Part shown: piece after piece, positions 1,732 to 26,757 of the stretch
Position numbering within the stretch: position 1 is the first letter of the stretch
How the letters are laid out: the number at the start of each line of letters is the position of its first letter
Source of the DNA: a virus
Strand: one strand, 5' to 3'
DNA: 34,721 bases
Virus record (IMG/VR): IMGVR_UViG_3300015360_000118
Span: 1 to 34,721 of that record
Made by a program: the position numbers and the translations under genes
Notes under the pieces: model-generated
Seen by the model: only the letters and a program-made list of their open reading frames with translations
Database searches by the model: none
Told to the model about the DNA's origin: nothing

Positions 1732-2370
1732 ATGAAACTCGAAATAAAAAACCACCCCGAAGATAAAGTTGGTATTTACGCCGTCTCCAAGAAGGCAAAG
1801 AGAGCTCATATACCACTGGCTTTTTTAATTACTCAAGTGTGTGACGACGCAGAAAAGGAGTGGGCAGACAAATACGGTATGAAGGCTTGGGCGATTTCTC
1901 ACGCACAACTCACAACGTCCCCAGAGCCCTTACGTATCTTTGTAGTACACCCGACATTGGCAGAAAAGTCACTCAATCCTTTAAACGCTGGCTTTCCTTC
2001 ACGGGCTATCTTTAATGCTCAAATCCTAGAAGCCGAGAAGGAACTTGTAATGTATAAAAAAGTTCGAAAGACGGTATTTAATGGCACAACAGGAAAGCGA
2101 GAGATACACGACAAGGTACCGGAGAAGTGCGCCACGCCCAATATCTTTGAACCCAAGGAAGGTTGTATGAGTTTTGTACACCGGAAACCAAAGAAGGTGC
2201 AGCGAGTCTTCCGTATTACCGTTCGATACTGGTATCCGCGTCGTATACTTGGCTTGTGGGTATTATGGCGCCGGACTGAAAAAGTAGAAGGCTTAAAGTC
2301 GCAGATATTCCAGCACGAAATACAGCACTTCGAAGGGGATAACATATACTTTAAGCACAATGAACGCTAA
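1732..2370 (+). CDS. Peptide-deformylase-like protein
   Basis: A 212-residue protein carrying the hallmarks of peptide deformylase, the metal enzyme that removes the formyl group from new proteins. Motif 2 is EGCMS at 143-147 (family EGCLS, metal ligand Cys145) and motif 3 is HEIQH at 195-199 (family HExDH, ligands His195 and His199, catalytic Glu196). Motif 1 (family GxGLAAxQ) is degenerate: around 52-59 only Gln59 is convincing, followed by LRIFVVHP as in true deformylases. The usual Asp of HExDH is Gln198. All metal ligands and the catalytic Glu remain, so activity is possible, but the degenerate first motif could mean altered specificity. It lies inside the terminase operon and overlaps the TerL start by 11 bases. 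Confidence 0.72.
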   Translation: MKLEIKNHPEDKVGIYAVSKKAKRAHIPLAFLITQVCDDAEKEWADKYGMKAWAISHAQLTTSPEPLRIFVVHPTLAEKSLNPLNAGFPSRAIFNAQILEAEKELVMYKKVRKTVFNGTTGKREIHDKVPEKCATPNIFEPKEGCMSFVHRKPKKVQRVFRITVRYWYPRRILGLWVLWRRTEKVEGLKSQIFQHEIQHFEGDNIYFKHNER

Positions 2371-3847
2371 AAAGCCCGACAACTACGACTTGCAGCTCCT
2401 AGACTACCGCCTAGAGAATGAAAAGTACCGATACTACGAACCTTCTGGAGTAGGAGAGGACTTTCTCAATGCGTTTGGAAGCAATGACTACTTTATACTC
2501 TTTCTTTCGGCGGCTAATGGAGTGGGCAAAACAGCACTGGCTACCAACATAATCGCAAATATATGCTTTTCTGGTAATAATCCTTGGTTCCGTGGTGGAT
2601 TGTTCGAGAAATGGCAGTATCTAAAGAAGGGACGTATTGTTACAGAATCAGACTTGGTAGAAAAGAACGTGGTAAACGAGCTTAAACAATGGCTCCCCCG
2701 CGGTCGCTACCAGACTAAAAAAGCTGGTAAGCACTTCGAATCCCGTTGGTTTACTGATACCGGCTTCGATTGGGACATTATGACCTATGACCAAGACCCT
2801 ATGCAGTTTGAAGGAATAACGCTCGGTTGGGCTTGGTTTGACGAGCCACCACCAGACCTATTGTTGAAAGCTACAATCTCTCGTATGCGTAAAGGTGGTA
2901 TCATTATTATCACAGCTACACCTATTTCCGGTTCAGCTCACTTGTACGATATGTTCGCCAATGGAGAAATGGAAGTGCAAGTACAGCTTCGAGAAGGAGA
3001 AGACCCTGTAACTGTAAAGCGCCGTGTTTACCACCTTACAGCGGACGTTGAAAGCGTTTGTAAGGAGCATGGTATCCGTGGACACTTGGAGCACCAACAT
3101 ATTGCTCAAATGGTCGCGGAGTATCCGGAAGACGAACGACAAGCTCGTGTATACGGTAAGTTTCAACACCTTGTAGGACTTGTGTTTAAAAAATGGAATA
3201 AACAAGTACACGTAATAGAACCGTTTGCGCTCGACCCGCGCGAGTGGTGCGTTTATCATTCCCTTGACCCGCACCCACGTAACCCAGACGCAGGTATTTG
3301 GCTGGCAGTAAATAGGCAAGGAACCAAGATAGTAGTTGATGAGTATTACAAAAACCCAGACACGGTGCAGGACTTGGGATATGATTTAAAGAAGAAGCAC
3401 TCTCTCTACCGTATGGAAACGCCGTATACCATTGACCCTAGTGCAACGATCGTCGACCAACATACAGAACGTTGTTTGGCTACTATGCTGGAGGACGAAG
3501 GACTTAATTACATTTCAGCGTCAAAGTCTCGAGCGGTAGCAGATAAGCGTATTGAGAACGCCTTGGACTACCGAGAAGTAAACGGACAAATGATAAAGCC
3601 GCCTGAATTGTACGTATTTTCTACTTGTCAGCGTTTCATTTACGAAGTGGAGCACTGGCGCTGGCAAGAGTGGAAGGGCAAAACCAGCTTTGATAAAAAC
3701 CGTAAGGAACAAAAGGTTGATAAAGACGACCACACTATTGAGTGTCTTGGACGTATTTTGTTTCAAGAGCCACAGTTTAGAGAAATGGTTACGCGACAAG
3801 TGCAAAGTGGAGTACAAAAAATGTCTAGCGATGACCCTTACTTTTAA
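2360..3847 (+). CDS. terL: Terminase large subunit (packaging ATPase and nuclease)
   Basis: A 495-residue protein that should drive DNA into the prohead and cut it. The N-terminal ATPase shows a Walker A loop SAANGVGKT at 50-58, a Walker B strand GWAWFDE ending at 162 and a TATPIS coupling motif at 185-190. The C-terminal RNase-H-like nuclease shows SLDPHPRNPDAG (Asp303), VVDEYY around 326-330 and a late KDDHTIECLGRIL that probably supplies the last acidic residue. The length is normal for the family. Its start overlaps the end of the deformylase-like gene. It is followed by a zinc-ribbon gene and then the 1 kb structured non-coding region. Confidence 0.95.
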   Translation: MNAKKPDNYDLQLLDYRLENEKYRYYEPSGVGEDFLNAFGSNDYFILFLSAANGVGKTALATNIIANICFSGNNPWFRGGLFEKWQYLKKGRIVTESDLVEKNVVNELKQWLPRGRYQTKKAGKHFESRWFTDTGFDWDIMTYDQDPMQFEGITLGWAWFDEPPPDLLLKATISRMRKGGIIIITATPISGSAHLYDMFANGEMEVQVQLREGEDPVTVKRRVYHLTADVESVCKEHGIRGHLEHQHIAQMVAEYPEDERQARVYGKFQHLVGLVFKKWNKQVHVIEPFALDPREWCVYHSLDPHPRNPDAGIWLAVNRQGTKIVVDEYYKNPDTVQDLGYDLKKKHSLYRMETPYTIDPSATIVDQHTERCLATMLEDEGLNYISASKSRAVADKRIENALDYREVNGQMIKPPELYVFSTCQRFIYEVEHWRWQEWKGKTSFDKNRKEQKVDKDDHTIECLGRILFQEPQFREMVTRQVQSGVQKMSSDDPYF

Positions 3848-4091: not shown

Positions 4092-4127
4092 TATATAAGC
4101 CGCTGGACTCCATAAAAGGTGACAATG

Positions 4128-4136
4128 TGGTATTAT
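4128..4136 (+). promoter_or_regulatory. Extended -10 promoter candidate for a small RNA
   Basis: TGG followed by TATTAT at 4131-4136, with a purine start region at about 4141-4143. No clear -35 is seen. A short structured stretch ending in an intrinsic terminator follows within 75 bases, which fits a free-standing small RNA gene. Confidence 0.4.
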
Positions 4137-4139
4137 AGA

Positions 4140-4210
4140 CATGGAGCCATTCTTGCCTTAAGCGGTAAGGAAACCATGGAAAGAGCACCACCAGCCGGGG
4201 TGCTCTTTTT
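4140..4210 (+). ncRNA. Candidate small RNA (about 70 nt) with its own terminator
   Basis: CATGG (4140-4144) pairs with CCATG (4174-4178) and encloses a hairpin CCTTA (4156-4160)/TAAGG (4166-4170). The terminator hairpin follows at once. An extended -10 lies just upstream. There is no open frame of note inside. The promoter-structure-terminator layout supports a small non-coding RNA gene; no known family is recognised and the function is unknown. Confidence 0.5.
4180..4210 (+). terminator. Rho-independent terminator
   Basis: AAAGAGCACC (4180-4189) pairs with GGTGCTCTTT (4199-4208) around a 9-base loop and runs into a T tract ending at 4210. This is a textbook intrinsic terminator, placed 40 bases downstream of the small-RNA start region. 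Confidence 0.8.
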
Positions 4211-4240
4211 GTTCTTAACCTTATCTTCATACGCTTTGTT

Positions 4241-4251: not shown

Positions 4252-4458
4252 CTAGGACTGTAACAAATATCCACAGTCTACGGCTATACAGATAGAGCCT
4301 TAAACATGCTATTATGTTCGGGTATGGTTTTGAAACATCAACAATTGAATACTTGCGCAGCTAACCCAACCTCGGAAGACCATACAATTTTCCTTGGGTT
4401 GGCGTCGCTAGTATTGAACAAAAACGTTGTAAGGGCACTCTTTTTGAGTGTCTTTTTT
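4252..4458 (+). ncRNA. Candidate structured RNA (about 205 nt) ending in a terminator
   Basis: A chain of helices: GACTGT/ACAGTC (4256-4278), GGCTAT with ATAGAGCC (4282-4299, one bulge), AACAT/ATGTT (4303-4318), then a long imperfect hairpin in which AATACT (4348-4353) pairs with AGTATT (4410-4415), GCG with CGC, and GCTAACCCAA (4360-4369) with TTGGGTTGGC (4394-4403). An intrinsic terminator closes it at 4434-4458. A 72-codon open frame crosses it but has no start context and shows no family, so RNA is the better reading. The sequence TGCTATTAT at 4307-4315 also resembles an extended -10. Family unknown. Confidence 0.55.
4434..4458 (+). terminator. Rho-independent terminator
   Basis: GGCACTC (4434-4440) pairs with GAGTGTC (4446-4452, one G-U pair) around a TTTTT loop and is followed by six T residues at 4453-4458. 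It ends the second structured RNA. Confidence 0.8.
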
Positions 4459-4466
4459 CGTGTCAC

Positions 4467-4853
4467 ATTGCAACTCGGGCTTCTTGCAATTAAAAAACCT
4501 AGTCCGTTTCCAAATAGTAATTAGTTTTGTGTAGGAACCATAACGACTCGGGAGATCGTTGCTCTCAATACCGGTCATTATTGAGTCCTACGCAAAGCTC
4601 ATTACACAAGCTCTTGTTCAGATACATATGCGAAAGCAGGGAAAACGAGTGTCCGACTTCTCGCCCTGCCGTTGAATATGTACCGGAACAAGGGAACTCT
4701 AAAGATAAATAAAAAGTAAGTTTCGCGTCGTTTTGTTTCTAAGACAATAGCATTAAAGAAACTGGAAGGGGTTTATCTTTGTAGAGTACTGACACCAACT
4801 AAATAACCGCGCAGCAATAGCCCTTCAAGGGTAGAAGTCGGGCTGTACCTTAT
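4467..4853 (+). ncRNA. Candidate large ornate RNA with a three-way junction
   Basis: Nearly continuous helices. ATTGCAA/TTGCAAT forms 4467-4490. A three-way junction is closed by 11 bp (4526-4536 with 4586-4596) and holds arms AACGA/TCGTT (4542-4560) and CTCAATA/TATTGAG (4564-4585). A rod stacks CTCTTGTTC/GAACAAGGG (4611-4619 with 4686-4694), ACATAT/ATATGT, GCAGGG/CCCTGC and CGAG/CTCG. A second rod pairs CTCT-AAAGATAAA (4697-4709) with TTTATCTTT (4772-4780) plus AGAG, and encloses AGTTTC/GAAACT. A last part has CAGC/GCTG (4812-4845) around CCCT/AGGG. Short open frames here show no protein family. The style resembles large phage RNAs such as GOLLD and ROOL, but membership is not shown. Confidence 0.6.
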
Positions 4854-4897
4854 TAACAGAAAAAGGGTTTACAGTTTGTATTAAGAGTGCTGCCTTG

Positions 4898-4906
4898 TGT
4901 TATAAT
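4898..4906 (+). promoter_or_regulatory. Extended -10 promoter for the morphogenesis operon
   Basis: TGT followed by TATAAT at 4901-4906. A TTGTAT at 4876-4881 would be a -35 with a 19-bp spacer, longer than ideal. It lies 85 bases before the portal start and after the structured RNA block, so it probably drives portal and the virion genes. Confidence 0.5.
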
Positions 4907-4990
4907 TTTAGATGAAGAAACCAAAAGTAAGAAAGAGTCGCCAACAATTCCTTCGCTCAAAGGAAACATTACTGGCGATATTTTTTATAA

Positions 4991-6934
4991 ATGGCTACTG
5001 CTACAACTAAAAAGAAGTCCGACAAGTACGAAGTTCCAGAAGAAATTATGGAGCTTGAAGACGACTCTGTAGAAGAAAAGACAGAACGTCCGGACTTTAC
5101 TTCTCTTATAAAGCAATCTGCTTCCGAGTGGGAGCAAGGTTGGTGGTTTATGAAGCCAAAGTGGGACGAGTGGGCACTCCGACTCAAACTATACAACAAC
5201 CAAAAGCGCGACAAAGAAAGTGTAGGTGATACTACGCTATTTTCTGTATTTCAAACGATACTTGCGGCGCTTTACGACGACCGACTCGCTGCTACTTTTT
5301 CTCCTCGAGAGATTGGAGACGACGAAATTGCCGAAAACCTCGACTTGGTAGCTGATTATGACTACGATTTAATGGAAAAGGACATTATCGACTACGAGTG
5401 GGACTTTGAAGCTGCCTTTTTTGGTCGTGGCTTACTTTGTGTCATGGACTTTGACGAAAGTACCCTTACGCCTTCTCCGTATGTATGGAACAGAATGGTG
5501 ACAGTACGTGACCCAGAAGCCGCAAGTGTAAACGGCGATCGTGCTGGACGGGGAGCTTCGCGCTTTCTTTACCGTGAAATCCGAATGACCAAAGAACAGC
5601 TTGCAAACAATGACCAATATTTCGAATACGAAAGCCTAAAAGGTGCTGGAAACAAGAATGATACCAAGAGCCCACTTGACCAATACATGCGGGACACTGC
5701 CGACGCCGCGGGACTAGGAGACGTGCAAAAGTTCGCTAATATCGACGGTGATAACGCAAGTCTTCGACTACGAGAAGGTTTTACCCGCTGGAACGGCAAG
5801 CTTTGCTTCGTTACTATTGGAGACAATGGGAAAAAAGTTATCCGGTACCAAGAACTGGAGCGAAACACCATACCAATTGTAGACCGTGTACTATTTCCGA
5901 TTCCAAACTCTTTTGACTCTGTTTCTGTTCCGGACTTGGTGGAAGACAAGCAACGAGCTAGAGCGGTAGCGCTTAATCTTTCTCTTAAGGGAGTAAAAGC
6001 CAACCTACACCCAATGTACTTATTTGATAAGAACAAAATTGACGAGCGACAAGACTTTAATTTTGCTTTTAACAAGTTCATTCCAGTGCAAGGAAATCCA
6101 GCCGGTGCCGTAGTTCCAATGACTAAAGACTATATTAAACAAGACGTAAGCTTTATTATGGAGACGCTATCAGCAAGCGCAGAACGAGCTACAGGTACAC
6201 CAGACATTAAACAAGGCGCTAACCCAGACGGAAAGACCACAGCTACTCGAGACACACTTGTAGCACAAGGCTCGGACAGTCGTTATGGACTCGCTGCCCG
6301 TATTTTTGGTTGGAGCGAGCGACGATTCTGGCAAGAGTACTATAACCACCTTAAAGAGAACATGGACGATGGTATACACGAGAAAATGGTACGTGTCGTA
6401 GGCGCCCTTGGTGCTGCTTGGCGACCGTTTAAGAAATCCGACCTTATAGTACCAGCCGAACACGCAGACCCTAATATTAAAATTGAAAGTAAAGCAGTTT
6501 CAGATACAAGGCGCTTTAACGAAGCTAAACTGTTTCGAGACTACCTTACCCTTGCAGCAACCGACCCAACTGCTCAAATACGTTCTGGTATGCGGTATTA
6601 CGGCAAGCTTATTGGTATGAAGCAAGACTTGGTAGAGCAAATCTACCCACCTACAATAGACGAACTTCGTGCCGAGGAGGAAAATATGCTCATTTATGAA
6701 GGAACCAAGGCTATTGTACTTCCAGACGACGATCATTATTTACACCTTCAAATCCACAACAAGCTTCCGGACTCTCCAACAAAGACCGCTCACCTAAACG
6801 CACACAAACGGGCGCTTATTCTCCAAAAAACAAATCCCGAAATGGTACCGCTTCCTACTGCTCAAGGTGCGGTGCCGGTTGATAACCTAACAGCGCCAGC
6901 GCAAGAAGGAGGACGTAAGCTGCCAGTCTTGTAA
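4991..6934 (+). CDS. Portal protein (P22/T7-like)
   Basis: A 647-residue protein that should form the dodecameric ring at the capsid vertex through which DNA enters and leaves. After an acidic N-terminus (1-45) come portal-like helices around 83-105 (FSVFQTILAALYDDR) and 135-150 (YEWDFEAAFFGRGLL), a beta-rich wing, and from about residue 399 RATGTPDIKQG leading into long stem and crown helices (FGWSERRFWQEYYNHL). Length and position after TerL and before the scaffold fit the short-tailed-phage portal family. The ATG has no Shine-Dalgarno sequence, and a TTTTTT run lies just upstream. The family is inferred from pattern and gene order. Confidence 0.88.
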   Translation: MATATTKKKSDKYEVPEEIMELEDDSVEEKTERPDFTSLIKQSASEWEQGWWFMKPKWDEWALRLKLYNNQKRDKESVGDTTLFSVFQTILAALYDDRLAATFSPREIGDDEIAENLDLVADYDYDLMEKDIIDYEWDFEAAFFGRGLLCVMDFDESTLTPSPYVWNRMVTVRDPEAASVNGDRAGRGASRFLYREIRMTKEQLANNDQYFEYESLKGAGNKNDTKSPLDQYMRDTADAAGLGDVQKFANIDGDNASLRLREGFTRWNGKLCFVTIGDNGKKVIRYQELERNTIPIVDRVLFPIPNSFDSVSVPDLVEDKQRARAVALNLSLKGVKANLHPMYLFDKNKIDERQDFNFAFNKFIPVQGNPAGAVVPMTKDYIKQDVSFIMETLSASAERATGTPDIKQGANPDGKTTATRDTLVAQGSDSRYGLAARIFGWSERRFWQEYYNHLKENMDDGIHEKMVRVVGALGAAWRPFKKSDLIVPAEHADPNIKIESKAVSDTRRFNEAKLFRDYLTLAATDPTAQIRSGMRYYGKLIGMKQDLVEQIYPPTIDELRAEEENMLIYEGTKAIVLPDDDHYLHLQIHNKLPDSPTKTAHLNAHKRALILQKTNPEMVPLPTAQGAVPVDNLTAPAQEGGRKLPVL

Positions 6935-18858: not shown

Positions 18859-21800
18859 ATGGCAACTTGGGACGAGTTAAACAAAACTTACAGTTCAGCA
18901 AAACCAGAGGACGAAAAAAAGAAAGACGAAAAAATCAGCGTCAGTTCTTCTTCTTGGGACGAGCTAAATAAGTGGGGAGACACACAACCCAAAGCCGAAG
19001 TTCAAACTCAAACTCCAGTTGCTACTACACCAACACAGCCAAAGAAACAAAACGACGGCAATATACTTAAGTCTTACTCCAAGGGAGTCCAAGAGGTTGT
19101 AGGGACAAGTGCTGCGTTTGGCGCTTCCGGAGTCATGCGACTTTTTGGAGGATTGCAAGAAGTCGCATTAAAAGCAATCGAACCAGCCAACATTGCAGCG
19201 GCACGTATTGGACAAGGGCTTTATAAAGGACTTGGACTTATTACTCCGGACAACGGCAAATTGTCTAAAGTTGGAGACGACTTTTATACACAAATGCGAA
19301 GCGGGTACAACCAACTACAGGAAGCTTCTTTTGAAGTAAACCGTTCTGCGACAAACATTGGTAATAGAAGTCGAGATACCTTATTAGACAAGACTGGCTT
19401 TGACGAATATAAAAAGGACAACAGTGGAAAAGACTTTTCTTTCAGCGATCTAAAAGACCCTAAATTCTGGCTTTACGACGTATACGGCACAACGGTAGAG
19501 AACGCACCAATAATGGCGGCTACCTTTGTAGTAGGTAAAGGAGCGGGAATGGCGACACAGGGCGCTGGAGTGCTTGCATGGCTGGCAGGAACCGGAGGAG
19601 CGACTACCTTTTCTTTGGGTATGAACGCTTCTATTGAGTCCCAAGCCGCTTATGACACCGCAATGAAGTCCGGAAAGTCGGAGACGCAAGCATTAGTCGA
19701 AGCCGAGCGCGTATTTAACCGTAACTTTACTGCAAACACTTTGTCTGAAACGCTCCAAATGGCGCTACTATTTATGCCACAAGGAGATAAAGTTAAAGCA
19801 ACTTTACCACTTTGGAAGTCTTTAATTAAAAATGCTAGCAAAATTATAGCCGCTGGTGGTATTGAAGTACTCCAAGAGCGCGGAGAAAATGCAATTCAAG
19901 AAGGTGCTAGTAAAGAAGACTTTGATTGGGCAGGTTTTGGTTCAGCTCTAGCAGAAAAAAATGTAACAAAGTCTGATTTTATTTCCTTTGTACTTGGTGC
20001 TGGTATGCAAGGAGTTGGTAACGTTTTTGTTGATAACAAACAAATTTCAGAAGAAGCTTACGACCAAGCAAATGAAATGGCAGCGAAACTTTGGGACGGC
20101 GGGGACACTCCACCACCAACCGGAGAGGCAGCTATTGCTTACCTTGAACAACAGCGCATAGACAACCCAGAAGGGCTTATTGCCGTGTACAAAAATACCG
20201 TGCAAAGCCGGAAAAAGTTTGTGGAAGACGCCAAAGCCTTAACCGCCACAAATCAAGACGGAGCTATCCAATCATTGCCAACGATCACCGCAGAAGACGG
20301 CACCGACCTTGGACGAATTGAAATAAAGAAAAGCGGGGACGGCTTTGTTTCTCGTTTTGTTGGTAATGCTGGAGAAGCAGGAGCACAAACCGACTTTGAC
20401 TACTCAAATGTATTTAATACTCAAGAGGACGCAGCGCAACGAGCTACAGACGCACTTATTATATGGGCAGAACAGGAACGAACTAATGCAAACAATAGTC
20501 CGGTGACACAAAGCCGTCTTGAGGAGCTTATTGCTAATGCCCGTGTAAATAAAAAAGAAGCGCCAATAGAACTGCCAAAAAAAGAACCCGAGTTACCTAG
20601 TGGCTTATTACAAGCTCAACAGATTTTACAACTACTTCAAGAGCAAGGAGTGTCCGGAGCCGACGTTAGTGCCGCTATAAGTAATACTCGCGGGCAAGAA
20701 AGTCTTGGAGTAACTCAATACGAAGGAGCCAATGTATTGCATGAACTCAAAAAAATACAGGAGTCCGGAGGTAAACAAAAGCCAGCGCCACGAACAGAGA
20801 AAGAAACTAAAACCGAAGTTAGTAAGCCTACAGAAACGAAAGCGAACCAGAAAAAGAAAGTCCTACCGAGTACCAAGAAAAAAGCCCGTGCGGACTTCGA
20901 GAAGTCAGCCGACGACGTCAAACCAGAAGAATTAGTAACTATTCAAAAAAGTGTTAATAACGGCAAAGCTAAACTTAATAAACCAAAAACCCAAAAAGAT
21001 CAAGTGAAAGAAGTTATTGACCAAAAAGGTACCGCTTCAATTAAAGATATTAAAGAAACTGAAAAACAAAAAGCCAAAGAAGCAAAGATAATAACAAAAG
21101 AAAATTCTACAAAACCAAAAACGCCCAAAATCCTTACCATAACAGCCAAACCAGAAGACATAGACTTTGAACTTGCAAAACGTGCTCACGAAGGCACCAG
21201 CTTTTACCCAGAAAAACGTGCCGCGTCTCACCAGCAAAGCTACGTGGAAATGGTAAACGACTTTGCACTCGAGCTCGAGCCACTAGCAACCAGTGAAGCT
21301 CAACAGAAAATTGCACAAAACGCAGTTGACCAGTACGCAGGGAAGTTACTTAATGGCTATAAAGCTTACCTAGAAGCCAAAAGTCGCACTATTTCTCCAA
21401 TGATAAGTGGTGCCGGTAATTTCCCCGTAGAACGCAATCGTAAGCGCCTACAAACCCAAATGAAACGGTGGGACGAGGTTGTAGAAATACAAGAAAAGGC
21501 AATAAAGTATACAAAGAAAGCGCTTAAAGAGCAGTCAGTTGTAGACCGTGGAGGAGCCAAAATAGTAGCTCAAGACGAACTTGCCCAAGCAAAAGCAAGT
21601 CTCGAAATGATGAAGTCAGCCAATAAAATCATTAAAAACATTAAGCTTAATGACGAACAAAAGGTAGTGGAGCTTGTAAAACTTCCAGCGATCAGCACAG
21701 ACAGCGCCCGAGAATTACTAAAGCCAGACTATGCCGGACGGCAGGGCTTTGCTTCTTTTAGTCTTACAAGTGTACGTGGAAAGATTAAGCGTATGGAAGG

Positions 21801-24800
21801 AGCCGTGGTAAGTAAAGAGAAAAACGCTCAAGAGGAAGACCGTGTGCTTTTAGAGACTGCCGGTATGCGTATTGAAGAACACCCCCAAGACGAACGTATC
21901 CGCATTTACTTCGAAGGCAAGCCAGACGCAGAAATGAGAAACAAACTCAAGAGTAACGGTTGGAAATACTCACCACTTAATAGTACTTGGCAACGCAAAA
22001 ATACACCGAACGGACGATACAACGTCAAGCAGCTTTTTGGAGAATTACAAACTATGGAGAAGGCAGTGGAGGTAGAAATTGAGAATGTTGCGCCAGTTAA
22101 TCAGAGTGCCAAGCTTAAAATTGTTACTGTAAAAGGTGAAGATATTGAACAATCCTTTTTAGAAGAAAGCGACCGTGATGTAGAAAGAATGAACACATTA
22201 CTAGACAATGCTGGCGTTACTGATGTAACAGTAAAAAGTGCAGTAGTAAGAAAAGACGGTTCTTTTTCCGCTAATATGTCAGACGGTAAAGTGTGGGAAG
22301 ATACACGTTTTGCCGATATTGTTGCAAGCAAAAAACCAGAACTTGATAAAGTTAAACTGATTGAAGACAACCGCAAAGCCTTTAAAAGAAACTACGCAAA
22401 ACTTTCAAAAGCAGGTACTAAATTTAAGAGCACCACAAAGGGAGACTTCTTAAGACCAAAAACCAAGGTTGGAAAAAAAGACCTTAAGGACTTTGTCGAA
22501 GTTGAAGGCGAAATGATATTTACAGTTATTGTTGCCGATTCCATACTTGAAGGGAAGTTAAATGCAGGAAGTGGCAAGTACCACATATACCCATTACACG
22601 CACCAGAGGGGACTAAATACTTATATCGTAAAACTGATACCGGAGAGACAAGACTATTTCCAAGCGCACTCGGACTCGTAGAAGAAAACCTTGAAGAAGG
22701 GCAACTAATTGAGTTTAATATTGAGGACATAAAGCAAGCTGGCACCTATTACAACGCTATAAACCAAGCTGGTGACACTGTTGCTTTTCAGGGTATTCCA
22801 ACCGGAGAGTCTCTCAAAAAAACAAATGGAAAACTACCACTAAAAAACCCACAGACCGGAAAACTGTTTGGTTCCCTTTCACCCGACGAGTGGTTCACTG
22901 TTAATGTTGATCGTGTAATCCCAGACTCAAACTCAATGTCAGACGCAATTGCAGACTTACGAAACGGGCAAAAGTCATTTACAGGACTTCCAATTCTTGT
23001 TCGAGATAACGGCGAAGGGCAATATGAAATAATTGACGGGCACCACCGTTTTGCACAAGCACTATTTGTCGACGAGCAGCAGCAAGTGGTGGTAATGACA
23101 GACGAAGTTAAATACAAAAACCTTAACCGAACAGAATTAGACCAGACCGAGCAAGGGAATTACTCAAGTGGCGGACTTAATGCTTCTGTAGCCTTTGACG
23201 TGCCCATAATTGACGACAAAGGTACTGCAGACCCACGTTTTGACCAAGGTTCTGCGCCACTACCGGCTACAATGGCTCATTTGGACGAAATAAACACCGT
23301 GGAGATACCAGAATTAGTTGATATTGTACGCGAATTATCCGGCAAAGTTCCAGAAATTAAAAAGGCTTTCCGTAAAGTAGGAAAGGGAGGAGACTACAAC
23401 GCTACTTACAACCGTATCCGCGTCCGTGCTGATATGTTTCGCAAGAATAACCTACATAACGGAGCAAAAGTACTGGCTCACGAGCTCGGACACATGATTG
23501 ACGCAGTACCAGACGGAACACTTAACCGCGGAAATCTTATTGGAAGGCTTTTATCTTTGCGTGACTTTATGGGCAGCACTGGTAACCCTACCAGTGGGGA
23601 GCGAGTGACGATAGAACAACGACGAGAAGTAAAGACCAACACTATTAAGGAAGTACAAAAAGAGTTTGGCTATAAAACTCAAAAAGAAGTGCTTGCCGAC
23701 GCTAAAGCAAAAATAGTAATTAAGGAGCGTTTCAAGAAGACCATGGAAATGGTGCTAGAAAAGGACGGCTTTATTCGAGACGAAGTTATCCGGCAAGAAT
23801 TACTCGCAGCAACTCGTTTCTGGACACCTTACAATCCCGCAATGGTACCGGAGTCATACCGAGCGTATCGTGAAAGTGCGGTCGAGCTTTATGCCGAAGC
23901 ATTATCAATGCTTTATATTTCACCACGAAACCTTGCCCGTATTGCACCAACCTTCTACAAGCAATTTTTTGCAAACCTAGATAGTAAACCAACCGTGCGA
24001 GACGCTTACTTTGAAGTGCAAAGTCTACTAGCTGGCGACCGTGACGCAGTAACAGCCCGACGACGTGCCGGAGTTCAGCAAATGTTTAAAGAAGGCGAAC
24101 TGAAAGCAATGGAGCTACACAAAAAAAAGCTCGAAGAAAACAAGTCACAGAAACGAGAAATATGGAAACACCTTAAGCATAAGGTTATTGATAAAAACTT
24201 TCAGATTATCGACCGTGTAAAAGAGCTTGAAAAGAAGGGCACCAGACTAAACCCAGACGAAAACCCTGTATTCTTCCTTGAAGAACGAAATTATGTAGGT
24301 GGAAAAATTAAGGCTATTTTTGAAAAAGAAATTAACCCAATTTATCAAACCCTTACCGACAATGAAATATCTTGGGAGGACTTTGGAGAAGTCCTATTTT
24401 ACGAGCGTGTAGCTTCTGGCGATCGTTCTAATTTTGCAAACCCACGGGGTATTACACCGGACGCAGCAGTAGAACTAATTGCAGAAATGCGCGTCCAGCT
24501 TGGAGTAAAGCGCTGGCTGTTACTACGAGAGCAACTGGCTAACTTCCGTGCAGTGTCTAAACGTATAACTAAAATGGCTTATGAAGCCGGACTTTACAAA
24601 AAGGAAATGTACATAAAAATGAAGAAAAACCCAGCGTACGCAACTTTCCAAGTGCTCGACTTCCTAGAAGAAGGTATGACGTCTCGCATTTATAAGTCAG
24701 TCGGTACCTTCCGAGACATTGCCAATCCTGCAGACTCGACCTTGCTTAAAATGATAACTACTATTAAAGCAGCCGAGCGAAACGTAGTTACGCAAAAAAC

Positions 24801-26757
24801 TGTAGAGTTTTTGAAAGAAAACTACCCCGAAGATATTGAAGAAGCCCAATATACCGGTAGTAAAAAAGGACGATTCCCATTACCACCAAAGGGCAGTAAA
24901 AAGGAGCTCAAGCTTATTACTGTATTTGAAAAAGGAAACCTTAAGGGCTACTACGTAGACCCGTACATTGCCGAGACTATTAACAATCAGTCTTACGGAC
25001 AAAATGCGCCATTGGTACCGACTCTACGCTTCTTTAACGGTACTTTCTTTCGACCGCTTTTTATTCAGTTTAACCTCGGCTTTCAGTCGTTTAACTTACT
25101 ACGTGACTTCTGGCGTTTCTGGAAAACAATGCCAGACGCAACAATCTTAAGTTCAATGAAGGCGTATCACAAAGCCGGAAAAGTGGCTCGTTTCCGTGCC
25201 TTTGGTATACCTAAAAACCCAAGCCCAGCCGACCGAGAAGCCATTGCTCTTTACCAGAGAGCAGAAGAAGCCGGTATTCTTTCCCTCACCTTTAATGACA
25301 TTATTTCCGGACGCAACGCCGAAGATAAACAAATTGAAAAGATACTTGCAGATAGTGGTATTAAAGAATTTCAACCAGAACCAAAGTATGAGGACGTGCC
25401 GCGCTTTGCAAAGCCGGTTGTAGAAGTACTTAACAAAGTTGGTATTCTAAAAGTTGCCAGTAAAACGCTAGGCTTTATTGAAAACCTTGGTAACTACATT
25501 GAAACACTACCTAAAGCTGCCGCCGTGTACGAACTTAAAGGTACCGAAGCCGAGTTTCTTACTCGAGAACAAACAAGCTTTATCCGACGTAAAGTAGGTT
25601 CGCCGGACTTTCTTGCCGGAGGAACATACAAGCCAGCCACAAATGAAATATTCCTATTTTCTAACGCGATTATTCAGGGCATTAGATCAGACATAGAAGT
25701 AGCGACCGACCCAACAACCCGCTCCGGATACTGGTGGAAGACAGCAAAACTGAACTTTCTACCTAAAATTATGATGTATGCGGCACTCATGGGACTTTTT
25801 GGGGACGAAGTAAAAGAAATTATGGAAAGTGCAAGCGAGTACGACCGAACCAACTATACTATTATTCCGCTTGGAAAAGACGAGTTTGGAAAAGCTGTAT
25901 ACTTTCGCCTTCCTTCCGACGAAACAGGACGCTTCCTTGGCGCTACTTTCTGGAAAGTATTATCAGCTCCAACTAATGAGCAGCCAATTGGCTCGGATAT
26001 TATGCAAATAATTTCATACACTGGTGGACAAATTCCGTCGGTTACTCCAGTGGTGGAGATAATTAGTGCCACAGCTCAATACATGAGTGGTAAAAACCCT
26101 TACGACTCGTTCCGAGGACGCAATGTACTATCAGATACGTTATTCCAAGCCGGAGGTATGGAAGCCCATAAAGCTTTTCTTGGCTGGCAGTTCCAGCAAC
26201 TCGGAGGTGGTATTTTTTACAAGTTCTACCACGAAGGAACACCGCCAGAGAAAAAGAGTCTTGTCGAAAAAACCTTTAATTTACCGCTTCTTGGTAATGT
26301 TATAGGACGCTTTGTGCGAGTTAGTGACTATGGAAAGCTAGAAGCATTGCGAGAAATTGAAAACAAAGTAAAGACCGAAGAAGCCCAAGCTTCACTTGAA
26401 AAACGCTCAATAGTAAACACTTACACAAAACAAGCGCAAGAAAACGGAGAACTTACAGAAAACCTAGCAAATCAAATGGTACAAGAATATTTTGGAGGAG
26501 AACCAAATGCTTCACAGTATCAAGAAGCAGACCGCTTGAAAGACCGGCTCCGACTCGAAGTAATACGCGGTTCATCAGAAGCCGAGGTGGTAGCCGTTAT
26601 TGACGCAAATACTAATAATCAAAAGGCGGCAATCTTACTGGAGATCGGTAAGACGTCCACTCAAGAGGAGTTTGACAAGCTAATTTCAGACCTACTAAAC
26701 GCCGGTATTATTACCGACGGAACACTTGAAAAGCTCCAAGAGCGTTCACAGCAATAA
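18859..26757 (+). CDS. Giant polyvalent virion protein (ParB-like, metallopeptidase and LPD-type domains)
   Basis: A 2632-residue protein, probably carried in the head and ejected with DNA. It opens with two WDELNK motifs (4-9, 33-38). A glycine/alanine-rich hydrophobic stretch lies near 214-260. About 775-860 (AHEGTSFYPEKRAASHQ, later GAGNFPVERNRKR) and 1020-1050 (MRNKLKSNGWKYSPLNSTWQ) resemble paired modules of conjugative-element proteins. A ParB/sulfiredoxin-like domain around 1345-1410 has DGHHR at 1393-1397. A zinc-peptidase motif HELGH at 1541-1545 is followed by ELYAEA at 1676-1681, a likely third ligand. From 2065, RPLFIQFNLGF and NLLRDFWRFWK recall an LPD38-type domain. Together this is the 'large polyvalent protein' style; enzymatic activity is inferred only. 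Confidence 0.75.
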   Translation: MATWDELNKTYSSAKPEDEKKKDEKISVSSSSWDELNKWGDTQPKAEVQTQTPVATTPTQPKKQNDGNILKSYSKGVQEVVGTSAAFGASGVMRLFGGLQEVALKAIEPANIAAARIGQGLYKGLGLITPDNGKLSKVGDDFYTQMRSGYNQLQEASFEVNRSATNIGNRSRDTLLDKTGFDEYKKDNSGKDFSFSDLKDPKFWLYDVYGTTVENAPIMAATFVVGKGAGMATQGAGVLAWLAGTGGATTFSLGMNASIESQAAYDTAMKSGKSETQALVEAERVFNRNFTANTLSETLQMALLFMPQGDKVKATLPLWKSLIKNASKIIAAGGIEVLQERGENAIQEGASKEDFDWAGFGSALAEKNVTKSDFISFVLGAGMQGVGNVFVDNKQISEEAYDQANEMAAKLWDGGDTPPPTGEAAIAYLEQQRIDNPEGLIAVYKNTVQSRKKFVEDAKALTATNQDGAIQSLPTITAEDGTDLGRIEIKKSGDGFVSRFVGNAGEAGAQTDFDYSNVFNTQEDAAQRATDALIIWAEQERTNANNSPVTQSRLEELIANARVNKKEAPIELPKKEPELPSGLLQAQQILQLLQEQGVSGADVSAAISNTRGQESLGVTQYEGANVLHELKKIQESGGKQKPAPRTEKETKTEVSKPTETKANQKKKVLPSTKKKARADFEKSADDVKPEELVTIQKSVNNGKAKLNKPKTQKDQVKEVIDQKGTASIKDIKETEKQKAKEAKIITKENSTKPKTPKILTITAKPEDIDFELAKRAHEGTSFYPEKRAASHQQSYVEMVNDFALELEPLATSEAQQKIAQNAVDQYAGKLLNGYKAYLEAKSRTISPMISGAGNFPVERNRKRLQTQMKRWDEVVEIQEKAIKYTKKALKEQSVVDRGGAKIVAQDELAQAKASLEMMKSANKIIKNIKLNDEQKVVELVKLPAISTDSARELLKPDYAGRQGFASFSLTSVRGKIKRMEGAVVSKEKNAQEEDRVLLETAGMRIEEHPQDERIRIYFEGKPDAEMRNKLKSNGWKYSPLNSTWQRKNTPNGRYNVKQLFGELQTMEKAVEVEIENVAPVNQSAKLKIVTVKGEDIEQSFLEESDRDVERMNTLLDNAGVTDVTVKSAVVRKDGSFSANMSDGKVWEDTRFADIVASKKPELDKVKLIEDNRKAFKRNYAKLSKAGTKFKSTTKGDFLRPKTKVGKKDLKDFVEVEGEMIFTVIVADSILEGKLNAGSGKYHIYPLHAPEGTKYLYRKTDTGETRLFPSALGLVEENLEEGQLIEFNIEDIKQAGTYYNAINQAGDTVAFQGIPTGESLKKTNGKLPLKNPQTGKLFGSLSPDEWFTVNVDRVIPDSNSMSDAIADLRNGQKSFTGLPILVRDNGEGQYEIIDGHHRFAQALFVDEQQQVVVMTDEVKYKNLNRTELDQTEQGNYSSGGLNASVAFDVPIIDDKGTADPRFDQGSAPLPATMAHLDEINTVEIPELVDIVRELSGKVPEIKKAFRKVGKGGDYNATYNRIRVRADMFRKNNLHNGAKVLAHELGHMIDAVPDGTLNRGNLIGRLLSLRDFMGSTGNPTSGERVTIEQRREVKTNTIKEVQKEFGYKTQKEVLADAKAKIVIKERFKKTMEMVLEKDGFIRDEVIRQELLAATRFWTPYNPAMVPESYRAYRESAVELYAEALSMLYISPRNLARIAPTFYKQFFANLDSKPTVRDAYFEVQSLLAGDRDAVTARRRAGVQQMFKEGELKAMELHKKKLEENKSQKREIWKHLKHKVIDKNFQIIDRVKELEKKGTRLNPDENPVFFLEERNYVGGKIKAIFEKEINPIYQTLTDNEISWEDFGEVLFYERVASGDRSNFANPRGITPDAAVELIAEMRVQLGVKRWLLLREQLANFRAVSKRITKMAYEAGLYKKEMYIKMKKNPAYATFQVLDFLEEGMTSRIYKSVGTFRDIANPADSTLLKMITTIKAAERNVVTQKTVEFLKENYPEDIEEAQYTGSKKGRFPLPPKGSKKELKLITVFEKGNLKGYYVDPYIAETINNQSYGQNAPLVPTLRFFNGTFFRPLFIQFNLGFQSFNLLRDFWRFWKTMPDATILSSMKAYHKAGKVARFRAFGIPKNPSPADREAIALYQRAEEAGILSLTFNDIISGRNAEDKQIEKILADSGIKEFQPEPKYEDVPRFAKPVVEVLNKVGILKVASKTLGFIENLGNYIETLPKAAAVYELKGTEAEFLTREQTSFIRRKVGSPDFLAGGTYKPATNEIFLFSNAIIQGIRSDIEVATDPTTRSGYWWKTAKLNFLPKIMMYAALMGLFGDEVKEIMESASEYDRTNYTIIPLGKDEFGKAVYFRLPSDETGRFLGATFWKVLSAPTNEQPIGSDIMQIISYTGGQIPSVTPVVEIISATAQYMSGKNPYDSFRGRNVLSDTLFQAGGMEAHKAFLGWQFQQLGGGIFYKFYHEGTPPEKKSLVEKTFNLPLLGNVIGRFVRVSDYGKLEALREIENKVKTEEAQASLEKRSIVNTYTKQAQENGELTENLANQMVQEYFGGEPNASQYQEADRLKDRLRLEVIRGSSEAEVVAVIDANTNNQKAAILLEIGKTSTQEEFDKLISDLLNAGIITDGTLEKLQERSQQ

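Follow-up and report, generated by a model that had tools for sequence, protein, structure and literature searches.

In Bacillus, the antiterminator RNA EAR lies in cis, as a leader or within the operon, in exopolysaccharide operons, and contains a pseudoknot. The RNA described here shares with EAR an apparent cis position and a pseudoknot, but it is not matched by the EAR covariance model, and it is found in phages and mobile elements rather than in exopolysaccharide operons. The packaging RNA of phi29 is another phage RNA with a three-way junction, and the new RNA adjoins a terminase gene in the window; unlike the packaging RNA, it has no Rfam match, can dispense with its junction, and also precedes recombinase genes that are distant from any terminase seen. 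GOLLD and ROOL are large structured RNAs, many of them linked to phages or prophages (PMC12286853). They resemble the new RNA in these respects, but the latter is smaller, has no terminator found at its 3' side, and gives no match to either family's covariance model at the gathering score or, for the copies in the window and L042, at E up to 5. A further point of comparison is the put RNA of phage HK022, which spans about 70 nt and forms two stem-loops (PMC9378689). As a phage RNA leader that precedes operons and needs no protein partner, put provides our working analogy, although the new RNA, with at least about 200 nt and two pseudoknots, does not fit the description of put (PMC9378689).

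Structured phage RNAs are a known kind of molecule, but the family reported here appears to be undescribed and to be without a counterpart in Rfam. It is common to very different phage contigs and to integrative elements of Patescibacteria, and a covariance model that defines it is ready for use. Our starting point was a 34,721-nucleotide stretch of DNA (the window), which comprises positions 1 to 34,721 of IMGVR_UViG_3300015360_000118 and carries the RNA on its + strand.

Architecture of the conserved RNA

Comparison across loci shows a predicted architecture that consists of a pseudoknot (PkA), an optional insert, a P1/P2/P3 hairpin, a spacer and a second, long-range pseudoknot (PkB), transcribed from the + strand. 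The features of the window are as follows.

2360..3847, +, terminase large subunit gene, upstream (phrog_5653, E 1.8e-7)
4310..4315, +, promoter-like -10 TATTAT, assigned to the upstream pseudoknot RNA (alignment A1; TATTAT/TTATACT-like in relatives)
4322..4418, +, separate upstream RNA, H-type pseudoknot (GTATGGT/ACCATAC crossing TAACCCAA/TTGGGTTG)
4431..4455, +, intrinsic terminator-like hairpin and T-run, 12 nt before PkA
4468..4506, +, PkA, H-type pseudoknot (same geometry in 21 loci)
4517..4605, +, variable peripheral stem domain with the three-way junction at its tip (comparison and folds)
4526..4596, +, three-way junction (energy against shuffles; comparison and folding of relatives)
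4613..4692, +, conserved hairpin P1-P2-P3 (covariation; covariance model R1)
4651..4658, +, 5' strand of PkB, hairpin loop GTCCGACT (complementarity test)
4830..4843, +, GGTAGA motif and 3' strand of PkB (AGTCGGGC, 4836-4843; complementarity test)
4897..4906, +, second promoter-like -10 (TGTTATAAT) before the portal gene (sequence and alignment A1; unlisted by the promoter scan)
4991..6934, +, portal protein gene, downstream (phrog_1216, E 1.9e-14)

Within the hairpin, an internal loop GCGAAA (4630-4635) is followed by P2 (4636-4641/4664-4669), an AAAA bulge (4642-4645) and P3 (4646-4649/4660-4663). Relatives of the hairpin were collected from unrelated IMG/VR contigs and bacterial genomes with a pattern taken from the most conserved stretch just 3' of the junction, and the covariance model R1 was built from 14 sequences, the window among them. 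In the resulting alignment 94.5% of the cells are paired and two-sided changes are seen in 17 of the 26 pairs, a level reached by 0/500 shuffles and by no slid control. The window, itself one of the 14 model sequences, scores 91.8 bits (E 3e-24); its P1-P2-P3 hairpin is recognized by R1 and it possesses both PkA and PkB. Additional copies are found by R1 in phage contigs, at 62-91 bits. At loci for which both strands are listed, the transcribed strand scores 80-98 bits, versus 25-37 for the other.

In PkA, two TTGCAA strands form a hairpin; a second helix, in which CGGGC from the hairpin loop (4476-4480) is paired with GTCCG (4502-4506), spans an A-rich linker. Across 21 loci, with segments anchored by hand, 103 of 105 pseudoknot cells are paired, versus 74.4 +/- 3.3 when strands are dealt at random (0/5000). 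PkB is a long-range loop pseudoknot that joins 4651-4658 to 4836-4843; its 3' strand lies about 30-150 nt downstream, after a GGTARA-like motif. The mean best complementarity for PkB is 5.95 in 28 loci, compared with 4.51 +/- 0.18 for permuted loops (maximum of 200, 5.13); the automatic form of this test placed L041, L070, L071 and L074 off the true site or without the motif. The predicted hairpin, PkA and PkB each display strong covariation across about 28 loci, and the fold is more stable than 100 of 100 shuffles.

The three-way junction is an exchangeable domain

A sequence-only reading of the window had proposed a compact three-way junction, and the coordinates, pairs and loops given there are all exact in the sequence. 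The closing stem (4526-4536/4586-4596) has 11 bp with one G-U and encloses two arms, one of 5 bp with a 9-nt loop (4542-4546/4556-4560) and one of 7 bp with an 8-nt loop (4564-4570/4579-4585). With one mismatch, the stem extends to 4517-4536/4586-4605. The 71-nt junction is more stable than all of 200 dinucleotide shuffles (-25.2 versus -14.1 kcal/mol, z -3.84). The minimum-energy fold of the window retains the closing stem but pairs the interior otherwise (-25.2, versus -23.1 with the junction enforced), so the case for the junction rests on its relatives. The same reading had called the element tRNA-like but not a tRNA: the latter part holds, as ARAGORN was negative for the RNA and reported 0 tRNA or tmRNA genes in the window, whereas the former has the branched fold, shared with tRNA and tmRNA, as its sole support.

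The portal and terminase proteins on either side served as queries to find relatives of the junction, namely contigs with the same gap between the two genes. By blastn, this gap is conserved noncoding DNA in L002, L003, L005, L006, L007 and L008, and partly so in L004 and L014. The closing stem is fully paired in all 8 sequences compared, with many two-sided changes. The covariation check that had been suggested for relatives thus found the stem kept by compensatory change, with no one-sided breakage, and left the junction unrefuted. Unconstrained folds of the equivalent domain recovered the closing stem and both arms in L002, L003, L004, L005, L006 and L014; in those of L002, L003, L004, L005 and L014 the first junction strand is mostly 5 nt and the others 0-1 nt. 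For the six closing pairs nearest the junction, 48 of 48 cells hold a standard pair, with changes on both sides, versus 29.1 +/- 4.2 with 3' strands dealt at random (0/5000). This figure overstates the certainty, because the strands were hand-chosen from related sequences and base-by-base homology is uncertain for the L006-type and L074 stems. The count also includes the stem of L014, whose full pattern was unmatched by the script and was recovered by free folding. The independent folds of relatives are therefore the firmer argument. In L074, a more distant phage, a stem-closed domain occupies the same site, and its minimum-energy fold lacks the two arms. Taken as a prediction from comparative sequence analysis, the three-way junction is real and has been maintained by evolution in related phages.

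The proposal that the junction is a probable core of a large RNA held in one respect only: it is part of a larger structured RNA, but it is not the core, and its site is empty in many relatives. The domain is inserted between PkA and P1, at a site whose content varies. The gap from PkA to the hairpin measures 3-14 nt in most minimal members, 23-48 nt with a short hairpin in L085, L115 and apparently L041, and about 100-125 nt with a stem-closed domain in the window, L002, L003, L005, L006 and L074. As this gap varies and is often empty, the junction is best regarded as a peripheral, exchangeable domain. L004 and L014 keep the junction and the upstream pseudoknot RNA, with the R1 hairpin unmatched and extra genes in its place in the terminase-portal interval. 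Comparison thus shows the predicted junction to be a peripheral domain that varies between lineages, attached to a noncoding RNA that is conserved in phages and integrative elements, and it illustrates the gain and loss of a three-way junction by a phage RNA at one fixed site.

Phyletic distribution

Carriers of the RNA are diverse uncultured IMG/VR phage contigs and four bacterial contigs (L042, L045, L054 and L059). L042 is labelled Parcubacteria and L054 Wolfebacteria; L059 comes from a sample of the same phylum, Patescibacteria, and L045 is an uncultured bacterium with a small genome. Each bacterial copy is followed by a serine recombinase gene, either immediately or after one small ORF; the recombinase was identified by Pfam in three cases and by its sequence in L059. 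Among 379 sampled Patescibacteria genomes, R1 matched the centre genome and 1 of the 378 others, so the RNA is evidently a mobile rather than a housekeeping element. R1 had no match in 299 Pseudomonadota and 249 Bacillota genomes, an uninformative blank given that no positive control was among them. The first genome-wide pattern was narrow, which biases the host range towards its form of the motif, and L025 matches the pattern with no match to the covariance model. For the window region and for L116, blastn against isolated phages found no relatives; for L071 it gave only 26-nt chance matches. No relatives of the window's portal protein were found in 360 Patescibacteria genomes.

Searches of Rfam 15 at the gathering threshold yielded 0 matches in the window and, in full-length scans of 29 loci, none that covered the RNA. 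A permissive search of the RNA region returned weak matches only, far below threshold (best E 1.8), and the L042 copy behaved likewise. Phage pRNA, GOLLD, ROOL, LOOT, HEARO and the known ribozymes and riboswitches gave no covariance-model score over the RNA at the gathering threshold. Within its limits, the literature searched contained no description of the RNA. A LOOT RNA (RF03000) lies on the opposite strand 1.2-1.8 kb upstream of the new RNA in two bacterial contigs (L042:6628-6743 and L054:744-868).

Flanking elements and downstream genes

In 12 of 21 loci the 150 nt that precede PkA contain a terminator-like hairpin, mostly 11-46 nt away, and the other 9 show none by the same test; shuffles gave 4/210, which is a lenient null as real intergenic DNA holds more terminators, and the downstream side is the better comparison. 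There, in about 250 nt after PkB, no terminator was found in 23 loci (shuffles 8/138). The helix of the separate upstream RNA is kept in 7 of 7 relatives (42 of 42 cells, versus 35.5 +/- 1.8 shuffled, 6/5000), its variation being confined to pairs 2 and 6. We infer that TATTAT at 4310..4315 may be the -10 element of this upstream RNA; it has no matched -35 and is unlisted by the promoter scan.

The first convincing downstream gene is co-directional with the RNA wherever this could be read. Portal, capsid or terminase clusters lie downstream in the window, L038, L041, L066, L068 and L115, and other downstream genes encode ParB, a methylase, RusA or serine recombinases. Phage genes are mostly co-directional, so the direction of the next gene lends weak support to any functional link with it.

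Possible functions

We give nearly an even chance to the reading in which the RNA is a cis-acting structured 5' leader of the following transcription unit, because a terminator often precedes it, none follows it and the next gene is co-directional. RNA polymerase would pass the terminator, or start at a nearby promoter; the nascent RNA would fold into the double pseudoknot, and the folded leader would alter expression of the following operon. Positioned beyond the upstream terminator, the RNA can have no cis effect on it. The promoter-like site between the RNA and the portal gene counts against the leader reading. Our favoured guess for the last step is that the leader would modify the elongating polymerase so that it reads through terminators further on, in the way of HK022 put or Bacillus EAR. 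A polymerase-acting leader would fit the position of the RNA ahead of unrelated operons, which is also where put is found in HK022 (PMC9378689). Antitermination by itself is nonetheless doubtful, because the downstream units are short in some loci: L070, L093, L102 and L116 have one or two co-directional genes downstream, which would be odd for processive antitermination. If the RNA does act on RNA polymerase, it would represent a further case of RNA-only control of transcription elongation. It is unlikely, in our estimate, that the full generalization applies, namely a protein-free double-pseudoknot antiterminator with an exchangeable junction domain that reprograms the host polymerase at the heads of phage operons and is widespread, including in elements of Patescibacteria.

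The presence of an elaborate fold with a variable peripheral domain, restricted to phages and mobile elements and with no fixed downstream gene, would also suit a trans-acting RNA in the manner of GOLLD and ROOL, excised from a leader transcript or transcribed from a promoter of its own, and acting on host machinery. A TATAAT about 40 nt upstream of PkA in L038 and the near absence of the RNA from the other Patescibacteria genomes sampled point the same way. Against it, no terminator was found at the 3' side in 23 loci, the terminator and PkA are in many loci too close together to accommodate a promoter, and the next gene is co-directional wherever this could be read; we consider it a serious, if minority, possibility. 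The leader position and complex fold could also reflect a cis element that senses a ligand or protein and controls translation of the next gene, or one that stabilizes the message. The downstream genes are, however, unrelated and lie from about 10 to more than 200 nt from PkB, making this quite unlikely. Two pseudoknots, the conserved unpaired GCGAAA, AAAA and GGTARA, and an insertion tolerance and mobile-element distribution that recall nucleolytic ribozymes might hint at a ribozyme that would cleave itself and thereby part the operon message from the small RNA upstream, but no known ribozyme family matches and the RNA exceeds most nucleolytic ribozymes in size, so that we regard this as improbable. 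That the structure is due to chance, or is an element acting at the DNA level, could be argued from the missing junction arms in the window's minimum-energy fold; the covariation and the strand bias of the model scores render it very improbable indeed.

Additional observations on the gene neighborhood

The region between the terminase and portal genes holds further structured elements. At 4322-4455 a second structured RNA, a covarying H-type pseudoknot followed by a terminator, is kept in seven relatives including L004 and L014, and just upstream (4119-4212) there is another promoter-like, hairpin and terminator unit (TGTGGTATTAT ... AAAGAGCACC/GGTGCTCTTT and T-run). Directly before the portal start codon, 4936-4988 contains a hairpin, GTCGCCA/TGGCGAT, followed by ATTTTTT, and the ends of this hairpin co-vary in L005-L008 (CGTC/GACG). 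Between the terminase subunit genes of the window, the ORF at 1732-2370 has a C-terminal match to the peptide deformylase-like phrog_2890 (E 8e-8), and 18859-26757 is one ORF of 2632 codons, more than one fifth of the window. In L002 (1690-4140) an insertion of about 320 codons, in frame and containing a LAGLIDADG-like domain, splits the terminase large subunit and is probably an intein. In L004 (3560-4009) an ORF that overlaps and follows the terminase gene resembles, as judged by eye, an HNH-type homing endonuclease.
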